From Trichocoleus desertorum NBK24 (GTDB taxonomy: Bacteria > Cyanobacteriota > Cyanobacteriia > FACHB-46): DNA of 64,000 nucleotides. Under the pieces are notes generated by a model. It worked only from the letters and a program-made list of their open reading frames with translations. It was not told where the DNA came from and did not search any database. Position numbers and translations under genes: made by a program. The first letter of the stretch is position 1, and every line of letters starts with the position of its first letter. This document shows, in pieces, positions 23,872-35,727 of this stretch. The stretch spans positions 2,767,628 through 2,831,627 of the forward strand of contig NZ_CP116619.1 of the NCBI RefSeq assembly GCF_030409055.1. Reading direction: 5' to 3'.

Positions 23872-25008
23872 ATGAAAAACTCTCCTTTTGCCCAGTCTAC
23901 TAGGATTGATCGCATTCTCGTTGTTGATGATTCTGCTGACAATTCATTTTTAATTCAGGCAATTCTAGAAGAGGAAGATTACAAAGTTGATATTGCCGAT
24001 AGTGGCATGGCAGCTTTAGCCAAGATTGATGAGTTTCCGCCAGATTTAATTCTGTTGGACGTGATGATGCCAGGAATGGACGGCTACGAAGTCACACGGC
24101 GAATTCGAGCCAATGAAAAACTTTCCTTCATTCCCATCTTGTTAATTACTGCCTACGACCAACCTAGCGTTGCCAAAGGTTTGGACACAGGCGCAGACGA
24201 TTTTATTCGCAAACCTGTTGAGTTTGATGAGTTGCTAGCACGGGTGCGATCGCTGCTTCGCCTCAAGCACAGTGTAGACGAACGTGACCACATTGCTCGC
24301 CAACGCGAAGATTTTGTCTCCCGCCTCGCCCATGATCTCCGTACTCCCCTAGTAGCTGCCGATCGCATGATGGGTTTGTTTCGCCAAGGTGCCTTGGGAG
24401 AGCTTTCTCCAGACATGAATGATGCGATCATCACGATGGCCCGCAGCAATCAGAACTTGCTGCAAATGGTGAACACGCTCCTAGAAGTGTATCGCCTAGA
24501 AGCAGGCCGAAAAAGCTTTTCGTTTGCGCCTGTCAATCTCCGTGAACTTGTGACAGAGGTAACTCAGGAACTCGCCCCTTTAGCCGCAGACAAAAACCTA
24601 GCTCTGAAATTAGATTTAGAGGAAGAACCTGCTGATCCTGCTGCTACCTATGTCTTGGGCGATCGCTTGGAGTTGCATCGTGTCCTGACCAACTTAGTCG
24701 GCAATGCCCTTAAGTTTACAGACAGCGGATATATCTCTGTGGGCTTGACTTCGGCTCCTGCTACTTCAGCCAGTACGCCAGCTTGGGTCGTCATTACGGT
24801 CAGAGATACGGGGACTGGGATCTCTGCTGAGGATCAGGCTATGTTATTTGAGCGCTTTCGCCAGGGGCATCATCGCCGCTCTGGCAGCGGTTTGGGTTTA
24901 TACCTATCTCGTCGCATTATTGAAACCCACCAAGGCACGGTTGATTTAGAATCGGAGTTAGGCAAAGGAAGTACATTTATTGTGCGCCTCCCCGCTAAAC
25001 AACCCTAA
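23872..25008 (+). CDS. Hybrid receiver-histidine kinase
   Basis: A 378-residue soluble protein with an N-terminal receiver (about 15-130: 'ILVVDDSADNSFL', Asp in 'LILLDVMMPGMDGYEV', Lys in 'IRKPVEFDELLARV') joined to HisKA ('RLAHDLRTPLVAADRMM', His154) and HATPase_c ('NLVGNALKFTDSGY', 'VRDTGTGISAEDQ', 'GSGLGLYLSRR'). In this layout the receiver is probably the input that gates kinase activity, so an upstream kinase should feed it. No DNA-binding output is present. It ends 8 bases before the aldehyde dehydrogenase gene, so the two may be co-transcribed. The signal is unknown. Confidence 0.86.
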   Translation: MKNSPFAQSTRIDRILVVDDSADNSFLIQAILEEEDYKVDIADSGMAALAKIDEFPPDLILLDVMMPGMDGYEVTRRIRANEKLSFIPILLITAYDQPSVAKGLDTGADDFIRKPVEFDELLARVRSLLRLKHSVDERDHIARQREDFVSRLAHDLRTPLVAADRMMGLFRQGALGELSPDMNDAIITMARSNQNLLQMVNTLLEVYRLEAGRKSFSFAPVNLRELVTEVTQELAPLAADKNLALKLDLEEEPADPAATYVLGDRLELHRVLTNLVGNALKFTDSGYISVGLTSAPATSASTPAWVVITVRDTGTGISAEDQAMLFERFRQGHHRRSGSGLGLYLSRRIIETHQGTVDLESELGKGSTFIVRLPAKQP

Positions 25009-27518: not shown

Positions 27519-29126
27519 CTAACGATTTACTCCATCAGTTGATTGGTTTGGAGCTGTCGTCCCATTAGGCTGTGCAGTGGGTGTAATGACTTGCCCACTA
27601 GGAGTTGTAATAGTAGTAAAAGAGCCACTGTTAGGCGTTGTGGTTGTACCAGTCCCTGGTGCGGTCGTTCTGTTTATTCCTGGTGTTACTGTCCCAGTCG
27701 GTTGAGATCCGGGGGCAACAGTTTGACCGTTCGGAGTCGTAATGACTGGCCCTTGATTTCCAGGTGTTGTGGTTGCTCCAGGTGCAAGAGTGCCAGCTCC
27801 ATTCGGAGTTATTTGAGTGCCACTACCTGCTCCCGCTCCTGTACCACCTGTTCCTGTCGTACCTGTAGTGCCACCTTGCCCAGAACCTGTTCCGACACCT
27901 GTACCCGTACCAGTGACACCACCTGGAACAGTAGTGCTAGACCCAGTTCCATTGCCAGTGTTGGCTCCAGTACCAGTTCCAGGAACTGTCCCCGGAACAG
28001 TTGTATCGGTACCAGTACCCGCTCCTGTTCCAACACCTGTACCCGTACCAGTGACACCACCCGGAACAGTAGTGCTAGACCCAGCTCCATTGCCAGTGTT
28101 AGCTCCAGTACCAGTTCCAGGAACTGTCCCCGGAACAGTTGTATCGGTACCAGTACCCGCTCCTGTTCCAACGCCTGTACCCGTACCAGTGACACCACCC
28201 GGAACAGTAGTGCTAGGCCCGGTTCCATTGCCAGTGTTAGCTCCGGTACCAGTTCCAGGAACTGTCCCCGGAACAGTTGTATCGGTACCAGTACCCGCTC
28301 CTGTTCCAACGCCTGTACCCGTACCAGGAACTGTCCCCGGAACAGTTGTGTCGGTACCAGTACCCGCTCCTGTTCCAACGCCTGTACCAGTAGTCGGTGT
28401 AGTAGTTCCGGTTCCAGGCGTACTACCAGCAGGCGCAGCAGTTCCACCTGGAACAGTTCCACCCGGAGCAGCAGTCCCAGTTCCACCTGTAGTTCCAGTA
28501 CCCGTAGCCCCTGGAGCGGCAGTTCCGGTTCCAGCACCTGCTCCGGTTCTACCTGCGGGTGCAGCTTGTGTACCAGGGGCACCACTACCTGCGGGAACTC
28601 TGTTTCCTGGGACAGTTCCTGGTGTAGGTGCTACTGGTACTGTAGTGGGTTGAGAAGGAACAGCCGGAGCGGGTGGAGCTGCTTGAGGGGGTGCTGTCTC
28701 TTCCGCCACACCTTGATTTAGCCGTAACAAAGCTTGAGAAGTCCGAAAGTAGGTTGCCCATCGCTGCGGATCGGGGCGGCTGCGCCATTGAGTACGGCTG
28801 ACATCTAGATTCAGCACGGGCACTATCGAACCTGCACTTTCAGCGGAGACAATGACGGACACTTGACTGGTTAAAATGTCGCGATCGAAGCTTCGCTGAG
28901 CGGCGGCCCTAGCTGCAATTTCAGCTCGGCGCAAAAGCGTTTCATAGCTTTCACCTGTTCGTCGGTCAAGGGCTACATCTACTCTGGCGGTATAAGCTTG
29001 AGCCACTTGAGGAGCGATCGCGGCTTGGGTGAGCCAAACACTACCCGCTAATCCCAAGCAGGTCGCCAAGCTTAGAAGTTGCGGGAGTGGAGAAGAATGC
29101 ATTGGGGAAGGGTGAAACTCTCGCAT
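27519..29126 (-). CDS. Exported protein with Gly/Thr/Pro tandem repeats
   Basis: A 535-residue protein of unknown function. A signal peptide ends near '[13 protein letters not shown]' (about residue 44). A globular domain of about 90 residues follows ('[20 protein letters not shown]', '[18 protein letters not shown]', '[19 protein letters not shown]'), and I associate it only with uncharacterised cyanobacterial proteins. From about 140 to the end the chain is Gly/Thr/Pro/Val/Ala-only low complexity, including 23-residue repeats of the form GTGTGxxTGxGTGxxTTVPG. No membrane anchor follows, so the tail may be a flexible extracellular or wall-spanning region. The ATG at 29126 has a GGAG about 11 bases upstream. 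An ATG eight codons later is possible. Confidence 0.7.
27893..28400 (-). repeat. Tandem repeat array, 69-base unit arranged in 138-base pairs
   Basis: The same phase point (GTACCCGTACCAG or its variant) recurs at 27901, 28039, 28177 and 28315, exactly 138 bases apart, and then at 28384, only 69 bases on. Each 138-base unit encodes two related 23-residue repeats: one with [19 protein letters not shown], the other with [19 protein letters not shown]. About seven full 23-residue copies are present with partial copies at the edges. The near-identity between copies implies recent expansion by slippage or unequal crossover, and copy number is likely variable. Confidence 0.9.
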
Positions 29127-29582: not shown

Positions 29583-31670
29583 ATGGTGAATCACTGGGCG
29601 ATCGCAATTGGTATCAATCAATATCAGTTCTTGCAGCCTTTAAGGTATGCCCAGCAGGATGCTCAAGCCCTGCGTGATTTTTTAGTGGAGGAGGCGGGAT
29701 TCCCGGCTGAGCAATGCTTACTGTTCACGGATACTTCTTCAACCAGAGCGGAGCGGGCTACCTATCCTACGCAAGGAACGCTGCAAGCTTGGATTGATGA
29801 CCTGTGCCAGCAGTTTGTGCAGCCTGGGGATTTAGTTTGGTGTTTCTTCAGCGGTTATGGGGCTTCCTATCAAGGCCAAGACTATTTAATGCCCATTGAT
29901 GGTGATCCGAGCGATATTTCTGGCACTGGTATTTCTGTGCGATCGCTGTTGCAGCAATTTGAAGCGACTGCTGCCGAAATCGCCTTGGTGATCTTGGATA
30001 TGAATCGGACTCAAGGGATTCAAGTTGATGAACCGTTAAGTACCCAGACGTTAGAACTAGCCCGTCGCCTCAATATCGCCACAATTCTTTCCTGTGAGCC
30101 AGGTGAGTTTTCTCATGAAGCTGCGAATCTGCATCACGGATGTTTTACTGCTGCTTTGTTAGAGGGATTGCGGTTGGGTCAGTGCAATACTCTAGCCGAT
30201 TTAGATGCCTTTTTGCGCGATCGCCTGCCAGAGCTGACAGAGCATCATTGGCAACCTGCTCAGCATCCTGTGGTGGTAGTAAATCCGTCGGAAAAAAGGC
30301 AGCAGGGCATTCTACCCCGCACCCTGGTGACTCCTGCCTGGGATGACTTCAGTTATCCTGCTGGTACAGACACAATGGCTGCTTTAGACTCAGATGCCTC
30401 CCGCTCCAGCTACTCATCTCCTGATGAGCGATCGCCCGCAGGGGTCGGCCTCTCTACTCTGTCTGTGAATCCGGAGCAGACTAATCCGGGTAATACCAGT
30501 AATACCAGCTACGCCTCTCACTCTTCACCCTACAAAATCCTAAGCAAATTGACTAACAAGCCATCTGCCTCTTCGGGAGAACCTAGTAAGTCCAACGCTC
30601 AAAACCCTTTGGGCGAACCAGCAGCACCAGAAATTCCAGATAGCGTGTTTTGGCGGCGGTTTTTGGTTTGGGGAGGACTGATTGCGGTTTTCCTGTGTAG
30701 CGGTGTGATTATTCGCAACTTGTCGGCTTTTACCGGTCGGGACACTTCTATTCCTGTCGTTTCTACCTCTACTCAGCCAACGGGTTTCAGTCAGTCAACT
30801 AACGCCACGTCTCCGGTTGTTTCTCCGGCTGTCTCTCCTGCACCTGTCCGGACGGCAACTCCATCCTCAGCAGCAAGCCCAACAGCAAGCCCGGACAATT
30901 CTGCTGCTAGCACTCCAGTCCCAGTTGCAGCCTCCAATGTACCGCCTGACCAATTGCTTCCTGCGGCCCAAGCGGCTCTGCAACAGCAAAAATCTCAAGA
31001 AGCCTTGCGCTTGCTGAATCAAGTACCCGTCAATCAGCAAAATGCTCAATACCGTAATCTGAAAACTCAAGCAGAGCAGCGGGCCAATCAGGATTTACTA
31101 GAAGCAGCCAGAGTCACGATCAGGCCGAACCAAGCCTCGCGGTTTAATCAAGCGATCGCCCAAGCTAGCAAAATCAAGCCAGGTCAGCCGCTTTATGACC
31201 AAGCCCAACAAGATATTCAACGCTGGAGTCAAGTGATTTTGGACTTAGCAGAGGGGCGGGCAAAGCAGGGTCAGTTCAGCGAAGCAATTCAGACAGCCCG
31301 TTTGGTTCCCAAAAATAACGCTGCTGTGTATGGTCAAGCGCAGCAGGAGATCGCCCAATGGCAACAAAAATCTCAGCAGCAAAAAGCAAATCAAGCCATC
31401 ATTAACCAAGCTCAAGGCTTGCTACGGCGTGGTGAAGCATCTTCCTACAGTCGAGCGATCGCCTCTGTCCGCCGAATCCCCTCTGGACAACCAGGCTATT
31501 TAGAAGCGCAACGATTGGCGGGAGAATGGAGCAATATCATCTTGGGAATGGCAGAGTTACGAGCCTCGCGCGGACGGATTCAGTCAGCTTTGCAAACTGC
31601 TGCGCTCGTCCCAGCCGGAACACCCGCCTATGCCCAAGCTCAAAAAGCGATCGCTGACTGGAAACGCTAA
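29583..31670 (+). CDS. Pseudo-orthocaspase (caspase-fold protein with Tyr/Asn in place of the His/Cys dyad)
   Basis: A 695-residue protein. Residues 1-235 match the p20-like domain of peptidase C14 (caspase/metacaspase): 'WAIAIGINQYQFLQPLRYAQ' and 'DAQALRDFLVEEAGF'. The catalytic His site reads 'VWCFFSGYGASYQGQDYLMP', with Tyr92 where FSGHG is expected. The catalytic Cys site reads 'ALVILDMNRTQG', with Asn141 instead of the Cys of DACR. Both changes make proteolysis unlikely. Cyanobacterial pseudo-orthocaspases with Tyr at the His position are known as a group. A Ser/Pro/Asn-rich linker (240-355), one TM (about 362-382, 'VWGGLIAVFLCSGVIIRNL') and a Gln/Ala-rich helical, TPR-like C-terminus (about 455-695) follow. 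The caspase part is predicted cytoplasmic. Confidence 0.85.
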   Translation: MVNHWAIAIGINQYQFLQPLRYAQQDAQALRDFLVEEAGFPAEQCLLFTDTSSTRAERATYPTQGTLQAWIDDLCQQFVQPGDLVWCFFSGYGASYQGQDYLMPIDGDPSDISGTGISVRSLLQQFEATAAEIALVILDMNRTQGIQVDEPLSTQTLELARRLNIATILSCEPGEFSHEAANLHHGCFTAALLEGLRLGQCNTLADLDAFLRDRLPELTEHHWQPAQHPVVVVNPSEKRQQGILPRTLVTPAWDDFSYPAGTDTMAALDSDASRSSYSSPDERSPAGVGLSTLSVNPEQTNPGNTSNTSYASHSSPYKILSKLTNKPSASSGEPSKSNAQNPLGEPAAPEIPDSVFWRRFLVWGGLIAVFLCSGVIIRNLSAFTGRDTSIPVVSTSTQPTGFSQSTNATSPVVSPAVSPAPVRTATPSSAASPTASPDNSAASTPVPVAASNVPPDQLLPAAQAALQQQKSQEALRLLNQVPVNQQNAQYRNLKTQAEQRANQDLLEAARVTIRPNQASRFNQAIAQASKIKPGQPLYDQAQQDIQRWSQVILDLAEGRAKQGQFSEAIQTARLVPKNNAAVYGQAQQEIAQWQQKSQQQKANQAIINQAQGLLRRGEASSYSRAIASVRRIPSGQPGYLEAQRLAGEWSNIILGMAELRASRGRIQSALQTAALVPAGTPAYAQAQKAIADWKR

Positions 31671-31691: not shown

Positions 31692-31717
31692 AACTTTTGG
31701 GCTTAACTTTTGGGCTT
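31692..31717. repeat. Short direct repeat between convergent genes
   Basis: AACTTTTGGGCTT occurs twice head to tail (31692-31704 and 31705-31717). The second copy reaches into the stop codon of the minus-strand kinase. It is probably a slippage duplication. Confidence 0.7.
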
Positions 31718-34700
31718 AACTGGCGATCGCGACTGGGGCAACCGAGCTTTGGCGCAGTGGAATCTCAATCAAGAACTGGGTTCCCTGGTCAAGTTGCGAT
31801 TCGCATTTGAGTATGCCGCCATGTTTCTCCACCACAATCTGATAGCTGATCGACAGACCTAGCCCTGTGCCTTGGCCCACGGGTTTAGTGGTGAAGAAGG
31901 GGTCAAAAATCCGCGATCGCACCGTTTCTAGCATACCAGGCCCATTGTCACTGATGCGAATCAGCATGTGAGAACCCGCACCATTTTCTAGGTGCATCAG
32001 TTCTGTCTCAATTTCAATCACCCCTGGGTTGAGTGGAACCCCTTGGTCTAGGCGCTGTTGGTTCGCATTGACGATTGCATCAATGGCATTACTAATGATA
32101 TTCATAAAGACTTGGTTGAGCTGACCTGCATAGCACTCCACCAAAGGCAGCAAGCCATACTGCTTCACCACTTTGATCGCTAGTGGATCATTGGCTAATC
32201 CGAGGCGATGTTGCAAAATCATCAAGGTACTATCGATGCCTTCATGAATATCTACGGGTTTTTTCTCGGCTTGGTCTAACCGTGAGAAATTCCGCAGCGA
32301 CAGCACAATCTGCCGAATGCGATCGGCTCCAACCTTCATAGAAGCCAACATTTTGGGCAAGTCTGCCGCCAAAAAGTCAAGATCGATCGCCGCAGCATAA
32401 TCTTGAATCGGACGTTCAGGCTGAGGGTAGTGTTGTTGATAAAGCTGGAGGAGCGTGAGTAACTCCTTGGTGTATTCGCTGGCGTAGCTCACATTGCCAT
32501 AGATAAAATTGACGGGATTGTTGATTTCGTGGGCCACTCCAGCCACCAACTGCCCCAGGCTCGACATTTTTTCCGTCTGAATCAGTTGGGTTTGGGTTTG
32601 TTGCAGTTCATTCAGGGTTTGAGCGAGTTGCACCGTCTGGTGCTGCGTTTGGGTGAGCAGTTCTGCTTGTTGAATGGCGACGCCCAACTGAGCCGCAATT
32701 TGGGTGACAAACTCAATCTCAGCCGTTGTCCACTCATGAGGCTGAGAGCATTGATGCACGCACAACAAGCCCCAGAGTTCGTCGCTTTGAATCAGCGGCA
32801 CTACCAAATTGGCTCTGACTTGAAACCGCTCCAAAATCTTCAGGTGGCAATTACTCAAGTTCGCAGCATACAGATCAGACACCGCTTGAATGCGACCCTG
32901 TTGATAAAACGGGGCATACTGTTCGCCAAAGCAGTGATCCTGAACTCTGAGGTCTAGCACCGAGGTAAAACCAGGCAGCAGACTTTCGGAGACAAAAATA
33001 CCAGCCTGGTAACTAGACTCTGGCTCGAATCGAAACACCCCGACACGATCGACGTTGAGCAGTTGGCGTACTTCTCGCGCTGTTGCCTGAAAAATTGTTT
33101 GTAGATCTAGCGATTCCCGAATTTTGGTAATGACCTCAAACAGGGCTTGCTGTTGCTCAGCAGTTTGCTCAATCTGTCTAGCTTGTGCTGTTGCCATTGC
33201 TGCCGTTGCACAGCTTTGCTCATATAACTCGGCCTGTTGAATCGCGATCGCCGCTTGGTCAGCCAATTGCTCTAGCAACTCGATTTCAAAGGGACGCCAA
33301 GGACGAGGCCCCCGACACTCATGAGCAATCAACAAGCCCCACAATTGCTCACCCATCCGAATCGGCACGACCAAGTTAGCCTGCACTTGCAGATTGCTTA
33401 AAAACTCGATGTGGCAAGGATGCAGGTCAGATTGCTTCACATGATCAACCGCCCGAACTCGACCGTGCTGGTACAATCCGGCATGTTCAGCGGGGAAGCA
33501 TTCATCGGCATATTTTTCATGCAGAATCGATGCCCACTCTCCTGCTACTTCCTCAACGACAATCTCTCCCCGCCATCCCCGGACAAATTGGTAAATCACC
33601 ACGCGATCGGTATCGAGTAAGCCCCGTACTTCTCGCACAATGGTTTGCAAAATCGTCGGCAGGTTGAGGGTGCTGCGAATTTGGTCACTGACTTGTCTGA
33701 GCAAACGAGCAGACTCTAAGGCTTGCTCTAGTTCAGTGGTGCGTTTCTGAACTTGCAACTCTAAGCTGACATTCAACCCTTGGATTTGTTGGTAGAGTTG
33801 CTGCTGCTGAATTGCCATAGAGAAGTGGTCGCCTAATGCGATCGCCAGTTCTCCATCTTCTGGAGCCCACGTCAGAGCTTGACCTTGCTTGAGTTCTCGC
33901 CAAACCTCAAAGGAGTTGCGGGGCTGGAGTTGTCGCTGGTCGGGGTCAAACCGTCCTGCCCACATGGTTTCAGTGTCGATCGCATCTCGAAAAACACTTA
34001 GGTAGCCCAGGAATTGCTGGCGATACTGGAGCGGCACGACCAAAATGCCACGAATCTGAGTGGCTTGGAAAGCAGGCGCTAAGACTCGCAGTTGTGGCTC
34101 TCTATAGAGGTCGGTGACACAGATGAGCTTGTTCGATTCACCCTGTAGCCCAGGTTGGAAATACCGCTGCCACATGGGGCTGTGCTCGATCACCCAAGGC
34201 TCGGCTTGCCCTGGCATCTGGGGTTGGGAGCCACAAATCGCCAAGGTGAAGGATGAAGGGGTATGAGGTTCAAACGCATAGAGCCGACCTCCAGACCCTT
34301 GGAGTAACGTAACTGCCCGCTCTAGGGCTGCTTGGAGTTGCAGCGTAGGTAGCGTATGCAGCATGCCTGCAATTTGATTAATGCTGGCTTCTTTCTCCGC
34401 TTGCGCTCTGGCTTGCCGTAACAATTCTGATTGAGCGATCGCAATGGAAACTTGGTCTGCGACTTGCTGCACCACCTGTAACTCTGACTCAGTGACCGCA
34501 CGAGGTTCAGCATGGTGAGACACGAGCAGCCCCCACAAAATCGGCTCTCCTGCTTGGGTGCGCATATCTTGGTGCAAAATTGGCACCACCAAGGAAGATT
34601 TCACGCCCATTGCCGTTAAGTACGCGACATGGCAAGGGTCTACAGGGCGATAGCGGATATCTTCTCCTGCTAGAGGTACCCCGGTGTCTGGGTTGTCTAG

Positions 34701-35063
34701 AGGGCTTAACCCAATTTGCTCGGAGGCGAGGTCTACAATGGAGCGTTGCCGAGCTTTTAGGAACAGTGCCCGCGCATGGGGCGGAATATCATCGGCGGGG
34801 AAACTGAGGCCCCATAAGGAAGGTAGGCGATCGCGCTCAATCGACTCCGCAATGACTTCGCCACTTTCATCTGCATGAAAGCGATAAATCATGACGCGAT
34901 CGGTTCTCAGGAATGACCGCATTTCTCGGACAGTCGCGATCAAAATTTCTTGTAGCTCTAAAGATTGCCGAATGCAGGTAGTAATTTTGTGAAGTAAAAC
35001 CTCATGATCTTGATGATCAATATTGAGCTGTAAATCCTGCATTTCTGGCATTTCTCTATTCAA
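31716..35063 (-). CDS. Hybrid knotless phytochrome/cyanobacteriochrome histidine kinase
   Basis: A 1115-residue soluble photoreceptor kinase. GAF1 (about 22-215) has phytochrome-like '[14 protein letters not shown]' and a bilin Cys144-His145 in '[20 protein letters not shown]'. The next domain (about 228-425) has the PHY tongue signature 'MWAG' (367-370) plus 'PRNSF' (381-385), so domains 1-2 form a Cph2-like GAF-PHY unit without an N-terminal PAS. Two cyanobacteriochrome GAFs follow (about 455-612 and 640-800). Each has the canonical Cys-His (Cys550-His551, Cys739-His740) and a second cysteine in a DXCF motif (DECF 520-523, DHCF 709-712). The kinase core has '[18 protein letters not shown]' (His845) and 'ISDNGPGM', '[10 protein letters not shown]'. 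No regulator is adjacent. Photochemistry is inferred from cysteines only. Confidence 0.86.
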
Positions 35064-35229: not shown

Positions 35230-35727
35230 CTACTCTAGAAATTCATCTTTTGTCATGCTGATTTCGGGTTGTTTGCGAGCTAGTTGCAGCCGAATGGCTT
35301 GACGAACTTGCATCAAAATCTTACCCAGTTGGTTTTGCCCAGTCCCCTGAGAGCCACAGCCCCAGTAGTAATCGGTAGGGGAGTCTTCCACAATTAATGC
35401 GTCCTGCGTGGAGAGCAAAATGGCTTGAATCTCTGGATGAGTCAAAAACTTGGTCAAAACTGCTTGATACATAATTTCTGTCTTGACTTGTTCCCAATCT
35501 TCTCGTACTGCTCGACAGCGATCGCGCCCCAAAGCCGCCGCTTCTTCAGGAGTATTTACCCCTCGAATTGTGGTGATTAGAGACTCATGTTCGGTGCCAA
35601 TAAACTTTTGTGACTGGTAATAATGCTCAACCGTGGCCCAGGTGTGATCTGCAATATCGATGGGGTGGGGAGAAAAGTTGGAAAAACAGCCGTAGGGATC
35701 GCTAACTTTGTAAAAATAAATGGTCAT
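35230..35727 (-). CDS. NADAR-family protein (YbiA-like N-glycosidase)
   Basis: A 165-residue protein of the NADAR/YbiA family (formerly DUF1768). Characterised members cleave the N-glycosidic bond of reactive early riboflavin-pathway intermediates, limiting damage, while other members act on ADP-ribose-type substrates. Typical sequence is 'YGCFSNFSPHPIDIADHTW', 'TVEHYYQSQKFIGTEHE', 'AAALGRDRCRAVREDWEQVK' and 'DYYWGCGSQGTGQNQLGKI'. The conserved Glu of 'VEHYYQ' and Trp-Gly of 'YYWGCG' are present. It stands alone, divergent from the DUF4129 operon. No riboflavin or toxin gene is adjacent, so housekeeping repair is the simplest reading. Confidence 0.87.
   Translation of the reverse strand: MTIYFYKVSDPYGCFSNFSPHPIDIADHTWATVEHYYQSQKFIGTEHESLITTIRGVNTPEEAAALGRDRCRAVREDWEQVKTEIMYQAVLTKFLTHPEIQAILLSTQDALIVEDSPTDYYWGCGSQGTGQNQLGKILMQVRQAIRLQLARKQPEISMTKDEFLE

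Follow-up and report, generated by a model that had tools for sequence, protein, structure and literature searches.

Does the long open frame on the minus strand of the window (the whole stretch of 64,000 nucleotides of Trichocoleus desertorum NBK24 DNA analysed here) encode a kinase with three separate bilin photosensors, or a single phytochrome followed by GAF domains of little photosensory value? The initial annotation had proposed a phytochrome unit joined to two blue/green-type dual-cysteine GAFs and one histidine kinase, and translation of the frame reproduced its residue numbers exactly (Cys144-His145, DECF 520–523, Cys550-His551, DHCF 709–712, Cys739-His740, and the motifs WAG and PRNSF). 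The product is likely, with good confidence on the evidence set out below, to be a soluble hybrid three-bilin photoreceptor histidine kinase, in which a red/far-red GAF1-PHY unit and two short-wavelength/green cyanobacteriochrome (CBCR) domains would act on one kinase module.

The frame, as read from the window, comprises 1115 codons (35063 to 31716), and the plus strand at this locus has many stops; a plus-strand frame at 32529–32957 was rejected as a gene and attributed to shadowing by the coding strand. The first codon of the frame is a TTG at 35063, and codon 8 is an ATG at 35042. Comparison with the orthologs from genomes G002 (97% identical) and G001 (85% identical) showed conservation of the codon-8 ATG, with both the TTG at codon 1 and an ATG at codon 5 absent in G001. 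Because the G001 ortholog lacks the TTG and is one base out of register upstream of the codon-8 ATG, the true start is probably Met8 (window position 35042). Residue numbers are those of the initial annotation, counted from the TTG, and with a start at Met8 seven has to be subtracted from all of them. The features of the locus are as follows.

31716–35042, minus strand: gene for the photoreceptor histidine kinase, 1108 codons when counted from the ATG that is the probable start by comparison with the G001 and G002 orthologs
34398–35009, minus strand: GAF1, knotless-phytochrome bilin-binding GAF (predicted), residues 19–222; Cys144 codon 34632–34634, PADDIP 34782–34799
33744–34397, minus strand: PHY domain (Pfam PHY), residues 223–440, tongue motifs conserved in relatives
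33954–33962 (WAG), 33909–33923 (PRNSF) and 33894–33902 (WRE), minus strand: tongue motifs within PHY
33213–33728, minus strand: GAF3, dual-cysteine CBCR GAF, residues 446–617; Cys522 33498–33500 in DECF, canonical Cys550 33414–33416
32646–33164, minus strand: GAF4, dual-cysteine CBCR GAF, residues 634–806; Cys711 32931–32933 in DHCF, canonical Cys739 32847–32849
31734–32621, minus strand: HisKA and HATPase_c kinase, residues 815–1110; phosphoacceptor His845 32529–32531, N, G1, F and G2 boxes intact
35230–35727, minus strand: NADAR-domain gene directly upstream of the kinase gene (L092–L096 in the genomes compared)

In a Pfam search of the whole protein, GAF was matched four times, PHY and HATPase_c were matched as well, and HisKA stayed below its threshold. 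The PHY match scored 36.4 bits (cut-off 27), and the best solved match for residues 20–443 was the PAS-less phytochrome SyB-Cph1 (8w26, E 2e-88); GAF1 also matched the structures 6ozb and 6oza (E about 1e-64), of which 6OZA is GAF1 of All2699 (PMC6696110). No Pfam match to a PAS domain was found N-terminal of GAF1, and neither a PAS domain nor a knot would fit there, since GAF1 begins about 12 residues behind the probable start. The tongue motifs W(G/A)G, PRXSF and WX(D/E), common to All2699 and Cph2 (PMC6696110), are represented by WAG 368–370, PRNSF 381–385 and WRE, which are conserved in the relatives. The RIT region, a trait of PAS-less phytochromes (PMC11264168), reads KIT in the window protein and RIT in most relatives. 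With a GAF followed by PHY, no PAS, Cys144-His145 and all three tongue motifs, the assignment of GAF1-PHY as a knotless (PAS-less, Cph2-like) phytochrome unit is well supported by sequence and bears out the proposed phytochrome unit without an N-terminal PAS.

GAF3 and GAF4 each carry a DXCF motif and a canonical Cys-His, DECF with Cys550-His551 in the former and DHCF with Cys739-His740 in the latter. The distance from the second to the canonical cysteine is 28 residues in both, the same as in TePixJ, and the alignment of GAF4 with TePixJ is gap-free between the two cysteines. The two D.CF motifs are not due to chance, because about 2e-5 are expected per position at the composition of the window protein, yet two were found, each exactly 28 residues ahead of a canonical cysteine. 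In an AlphaFold model of GAF3-GAF4 built from 16 sequences (mean pLDDT 80), GAF4 superposed on TePixJ 4glq (Z 23.8, rmsd 2.0, 149 residues) and GAF3 on Slr1393g3 5dfx (Z 24.0, rmsd 1.7, 153 residues); the arrangement of the two domains relative to each other is unreliable because of a pTM of 0.49. As far as alignment and fold tell, none of the cysteines lies away from the chromophore pocket, and in both domains the pair is in register with that of CBCRs of known structure, in agreement with the earlier proposal of two further bilin-competent GAFs.

GAF3 and GAF4 are neighbours with a common fold and similar motifs, and could have arisen when a single blue/green module was recently duplicated in tandem, which would bring redundancy and no extra colours. 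The phylogeny makes this highly improbable. In a tree of 55 GAFs, one clade (100/98) united GAF3 with third-position GAFs from proteins of the GAF-PHY-GAF-kinase type and with another dual-cysteine GAF from the same genome, and GAF4 fell in a clade (98/94) that also contains red/green-type GAFs such as NpR6012g4; neither grouped with TePixJ, the sole characterised DXCF reference included. Uniting GAF3 and GAF4 of three four-GAF proteins cost 185 log-likelihood units (AU p 9.6e-5) under the model used. By this tree GAF3 and GAF4 belong to different CBCR lineages and are not tandem duplicates.

The two lineages also bear on colour. The third GAFs of three-GAF relatives in the GAF3 clade (L035–L052) have both cysteines in 17/17 cases and the Asp of DXCF in just two of these, with PECF, SECF, PGCF and similar variants at that site, and they possibly form a distinct dual-cysteine subgroup. 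What stands of the earlier blue/green assignment is that DXCF and the canonical cysteine occur in both domains; the two domains differ in kind, their lineages are separate, and the Asp is usually missing in that of GAF3. The predicted blue/green colour is weaker for GAF3 because its clade is mostly without the DXCF Asp. Since Glu521 aligns with the Glu of RcaE PQEVF, an RcaE-type green/red protochromic GAF3 was considered as well; this was rejected, as the tree places RcaE elsewhere. At the place of the XRG motif WXDXXL GAF4 reads VQDHCF, and the red/green GAFs are thus its neighbours in the tree only.

The red/green lineage derived from DXCF lineages through loss of the second cysteine, which some members regained (PMC11284453), and GAF4 with its alternation of Cys and His fits such a border zone between DXCF and red/green domains. 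It is conceivable, if rather doubtful, that GAF3 and GAF4 bind bilin without forming second-cysteine adducts, showing unligated green-to-red photocycles or isomerising PCB to phycoviolobilin only, in which case the blue part of the proposal would fail. The grouping of GAF4 with the red/green lineage, the DRHF of its close relatives and the general lack of the Asp in the GAF3 lineage would agree with this. Against it, GAFs of the red/green lineage that bear a DXCF cysteine isomerise PCB and ligate C10 reversibly (PMC11284453), the second cysteine is kept in all 17 three-GAF relatives of GAF3, and both Asp and Cys are present in both motifs of the window protein. The three-bilin reading with second-cysteine adducts is preferred here.

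A family of 16 four-GAF proteins was collected from 3/3 genomes of the window's genus and, at E <= 1e-240, from 13 of 195 genomes sampled from the order of G170, and is spread over several cyanobacterial families. In two other orders no four-GAF protein was found at E <= 1e-240, a weak negative at such a cut-off. One member (L091) was matched from the PHY domain onward, yet GAF1 is present in its frame. Cys144 was invariant (16/16), and GAF1 was never lost. Cys522 and Cys550 were both kept in 11 proteins and both gone in four (L087, L088, L089 and L091), which may reflect one or two events only; the two are present or absent together in 15/16, the exception being a red/green-type domain. L090 has red/green-type domains at both the GAF3 and the GAF4 places. 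Cys711 was kept in 11/16 and is replaced by His in L080, L081 and L086 and by Tyr in L090, and deleted in L079. All five cysteines were intact in seven of the 16 proteins, among them the orthologs in all three genomes of the genus. Judged from these alignments, members of the family can do without the second cysteines, because the Asp is mostly absent in the GAF3 lineage and the second cysteine of GAF4 has become His in three proteins.

Every domain of the window protein is under strong purifying selection (dN/dS 0.04–0.10). Against G001 the values were 0.069 (GAF1), 0.103 (PHY), 0.042 (GAF3), 0.056 (GAF4) and 0.079 (kinase) with dS near saturation, and the comparison with G002, at a dS of 0.14–0.21, gave 0.04–0.09 in agreement with them. 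These ratios and the kept cysteines rule out decayed GAF repeats in the window protein, as had been suggested from the cysteines themselves; decay of GAF3 is seen in the four relatives. The same data weigh on the possibility that only GAF1-PHY senses light, GAF3 and/or GAF4 being poor bilin binders or structural or dimerisation spacers. The invariance of the GAF1 cysteine, the loss of both GAF3 cysteines in four relatives and the variable second cysteine of GAF4 speak for it, but within the genus the constraint on GAF3 and GAF4 equals that on GAF1 in both comparisons (0.04–0.09), their four cysteines have been kept, and spacers need no paired cysteines at CBCR positions. We regard it as unlikely, and three photosensory units remain the favoured reading.

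One pair of proteins records how the family may vary. L085 (from G424) and L086 (from G409) are orthologous kinases from two congeneric species, with 86–97% DNA identity over most of their length and 57–78% across residues ~610–790, corresponding to GAF4; in this region L086 and L080, which comes from another genus, share 76–87% identity. Protein identity between the two was 93% for GAF1-PHY, 93% for GAF3, 66% for GAF4 and 85% for the kinase. A GAF4 tree with L085 and L086 forced together was rejected (AU p 1.9e-4), a value that is indicative only, as the pair was picked after the sequences had been seen. The replacement accompanies a change of DRCF (L085) to DRHF (L086), and its simplest reading from the sequences is recombination of a single colour-sensing cassette. 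More tentatively, the family as a whole may consist of an old scaffold of knotless phytochrome and kinase, in which the middle CBCR GAFs would be exchangeable colour cassettes, recombined (the His variant, red/green) or silenced, retuning a three-pigment kinase with phytochrome and output fixed.

The output module contains HATPase_c (75.2 bits, Pfam) and a HisKA that scored 22.3 bits, under the Pfam cut-off of 26.9, with an intact H-box HEINNP (His845); with the N, G1, F and G2 boxes, all motifs of a two-component histidine kinase are present. No stand-alone response regulator was found among the scanned flanking genes, a receiver-kinase hybrid lying at 23872–25008, 7 kb from the kinase gene, and a promoter and terminator scan upstream of the gene returned nothing. 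The NADAR gene is the upstream same-strand neighbour of the kinase in six genomes of two orders, which argues for vertical inheritance of the locus. On the other side, a 695-aa protein encoded at 29583–31670 (plus strand) converges on the kinase gene and is conserved in the window's genus and G170; its N-terminus looks caspase/metacaspase-like by eye, and Pfam gave no caspase or metacaspase match for it, only a weak repeat match. Beyond it, 27519–29126 (minus strand) encodes a low-complexity protein with Gly/Thr/Val/Pro repeats, which hold long frames open on both strands; its length is 535 aa in the window, and the codon frames of G002 and G001 give 662 and 527.

PCB should be available in the host cell, since a single PcyA and a single heme oxygenase are encoded in the genome. 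GAF1-PHY would bind PCB at Cys144 and switch between red- and far-red-absorbing states with refolding of the PHY tongue. GAF3 and GAF4 would each hold a bilin on the canonical cysteine (550 and 739), and Cys522 and Cys711 would add reversibly to its C10, giving violet/blue versus green-to-orange photocycles. Through helical linkers the three photostates would reach a single dimeric HisKA/HATPase_c module (His845), whose phosphorylation would report the colour composition of light to a response regulator encoded elsewhere. Bilin loading, colours, second-cysteine chemistry and joint control of the kinase are inferred here from All2699, Cph2 and the DXCF CBCRs.

The kinase is one among many photoreceptors of a colour-rich organism, since three more knotless-phytochrome-like proteins and, among the loci read in the genome, seven other GAFs with D-X-C-F ahead of the canonical cysteine were found. 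The three proteins are L002 (960 aa), L075 (726 aa) and the Cph2-like L068 (G000 C1:5223000–5229500), a GAF-PHY-GGDEF-EAL-GAF-GGDEF protein whose CBCR GAF has DPCF. A peptide-pattern scan of the genome contigs gave distant matches only, the patterns being poor.

Among known systems, All2699 of Nostoc sp. PCC 7120 (GAF1-GAF2(PHY-like)-GAF3-histidine kinase) shares the knotless GAF-PHY, the same three tongue motifs, a CBCR-type GAF behind it, kinase output and a complement of two bilins in one protein; it is photochromic, with PCB bound in both GAF1 and GAF3 (PMC6696110). Compared by description, All2699 has one CBCR GAF, of red/orange type, followed by the kinase, against two in the window protein, each of them with a second cysteine; by analogy the latter would work like All2699-type kinases with one sensor more. 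Cph2 of Synechocystis sp. PCC 6803 is likewise a single chain in which a knotless phytochrome is combined with a blue/green CBCR GAF, making a four-colour sensor (PMC5812497), but its order is GAF-PHY-GGDEF-EAL-CBCR-GGDEF, with one CBCR GAF, domains interleaved with enzymes and c-di-GMP turnover as output. SyB-Cph1, the PAS-less phytochrome kinase of Synechococcus sp. JA-2-3B'a, resembles the window protein in GAF1-PHY and its RIT-type N-terminal helix (PMC11264168), and its solved photosensory module is without CBCR GAFs. TePixJ and the DXCF CBCRs share DXCF, the canonical Cys-His and their spacing, with GAF3 and GAF4 outside the tree group of TePixJ. IflA of Fremyella diplosiphon reportedly combines one red/far-red and one blue/green unit in a multi-GAF kinase, their interaction widening colour sensing; by description it has two photosensory units versus three here, and its link to the three-GAF relatives is a lead only. 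Interaction of adjacent domains is cited in PMC4853435. PtxD (NpF2164) of Nostoc punctiforme also has many bilin GAFs in one protein, two with a second cysteine (PMC5812497), and is set apart by description as a phototaxis receptor with seven GAFs. The exact four-GAF architecture, for which a search of part of the literature gave no published description, is a candidate for a new one. Hybrids of knotless phytochrome and cyanobacteriochrome are already known from All2699, Cph2 and IflA; added here are the separate ancestry of GAF3 and GAF4, a set of naturally occurring colour variants built on a conserved scaffold, and an instance of single-domain exchange. Two dual-cysteine GAFs of different ancestry, and relatives with dead, swapped or recoloured domains, make a ready test series for how several photosensors in one chain combine into one kinase output, for which very few proteins have been studied so far.
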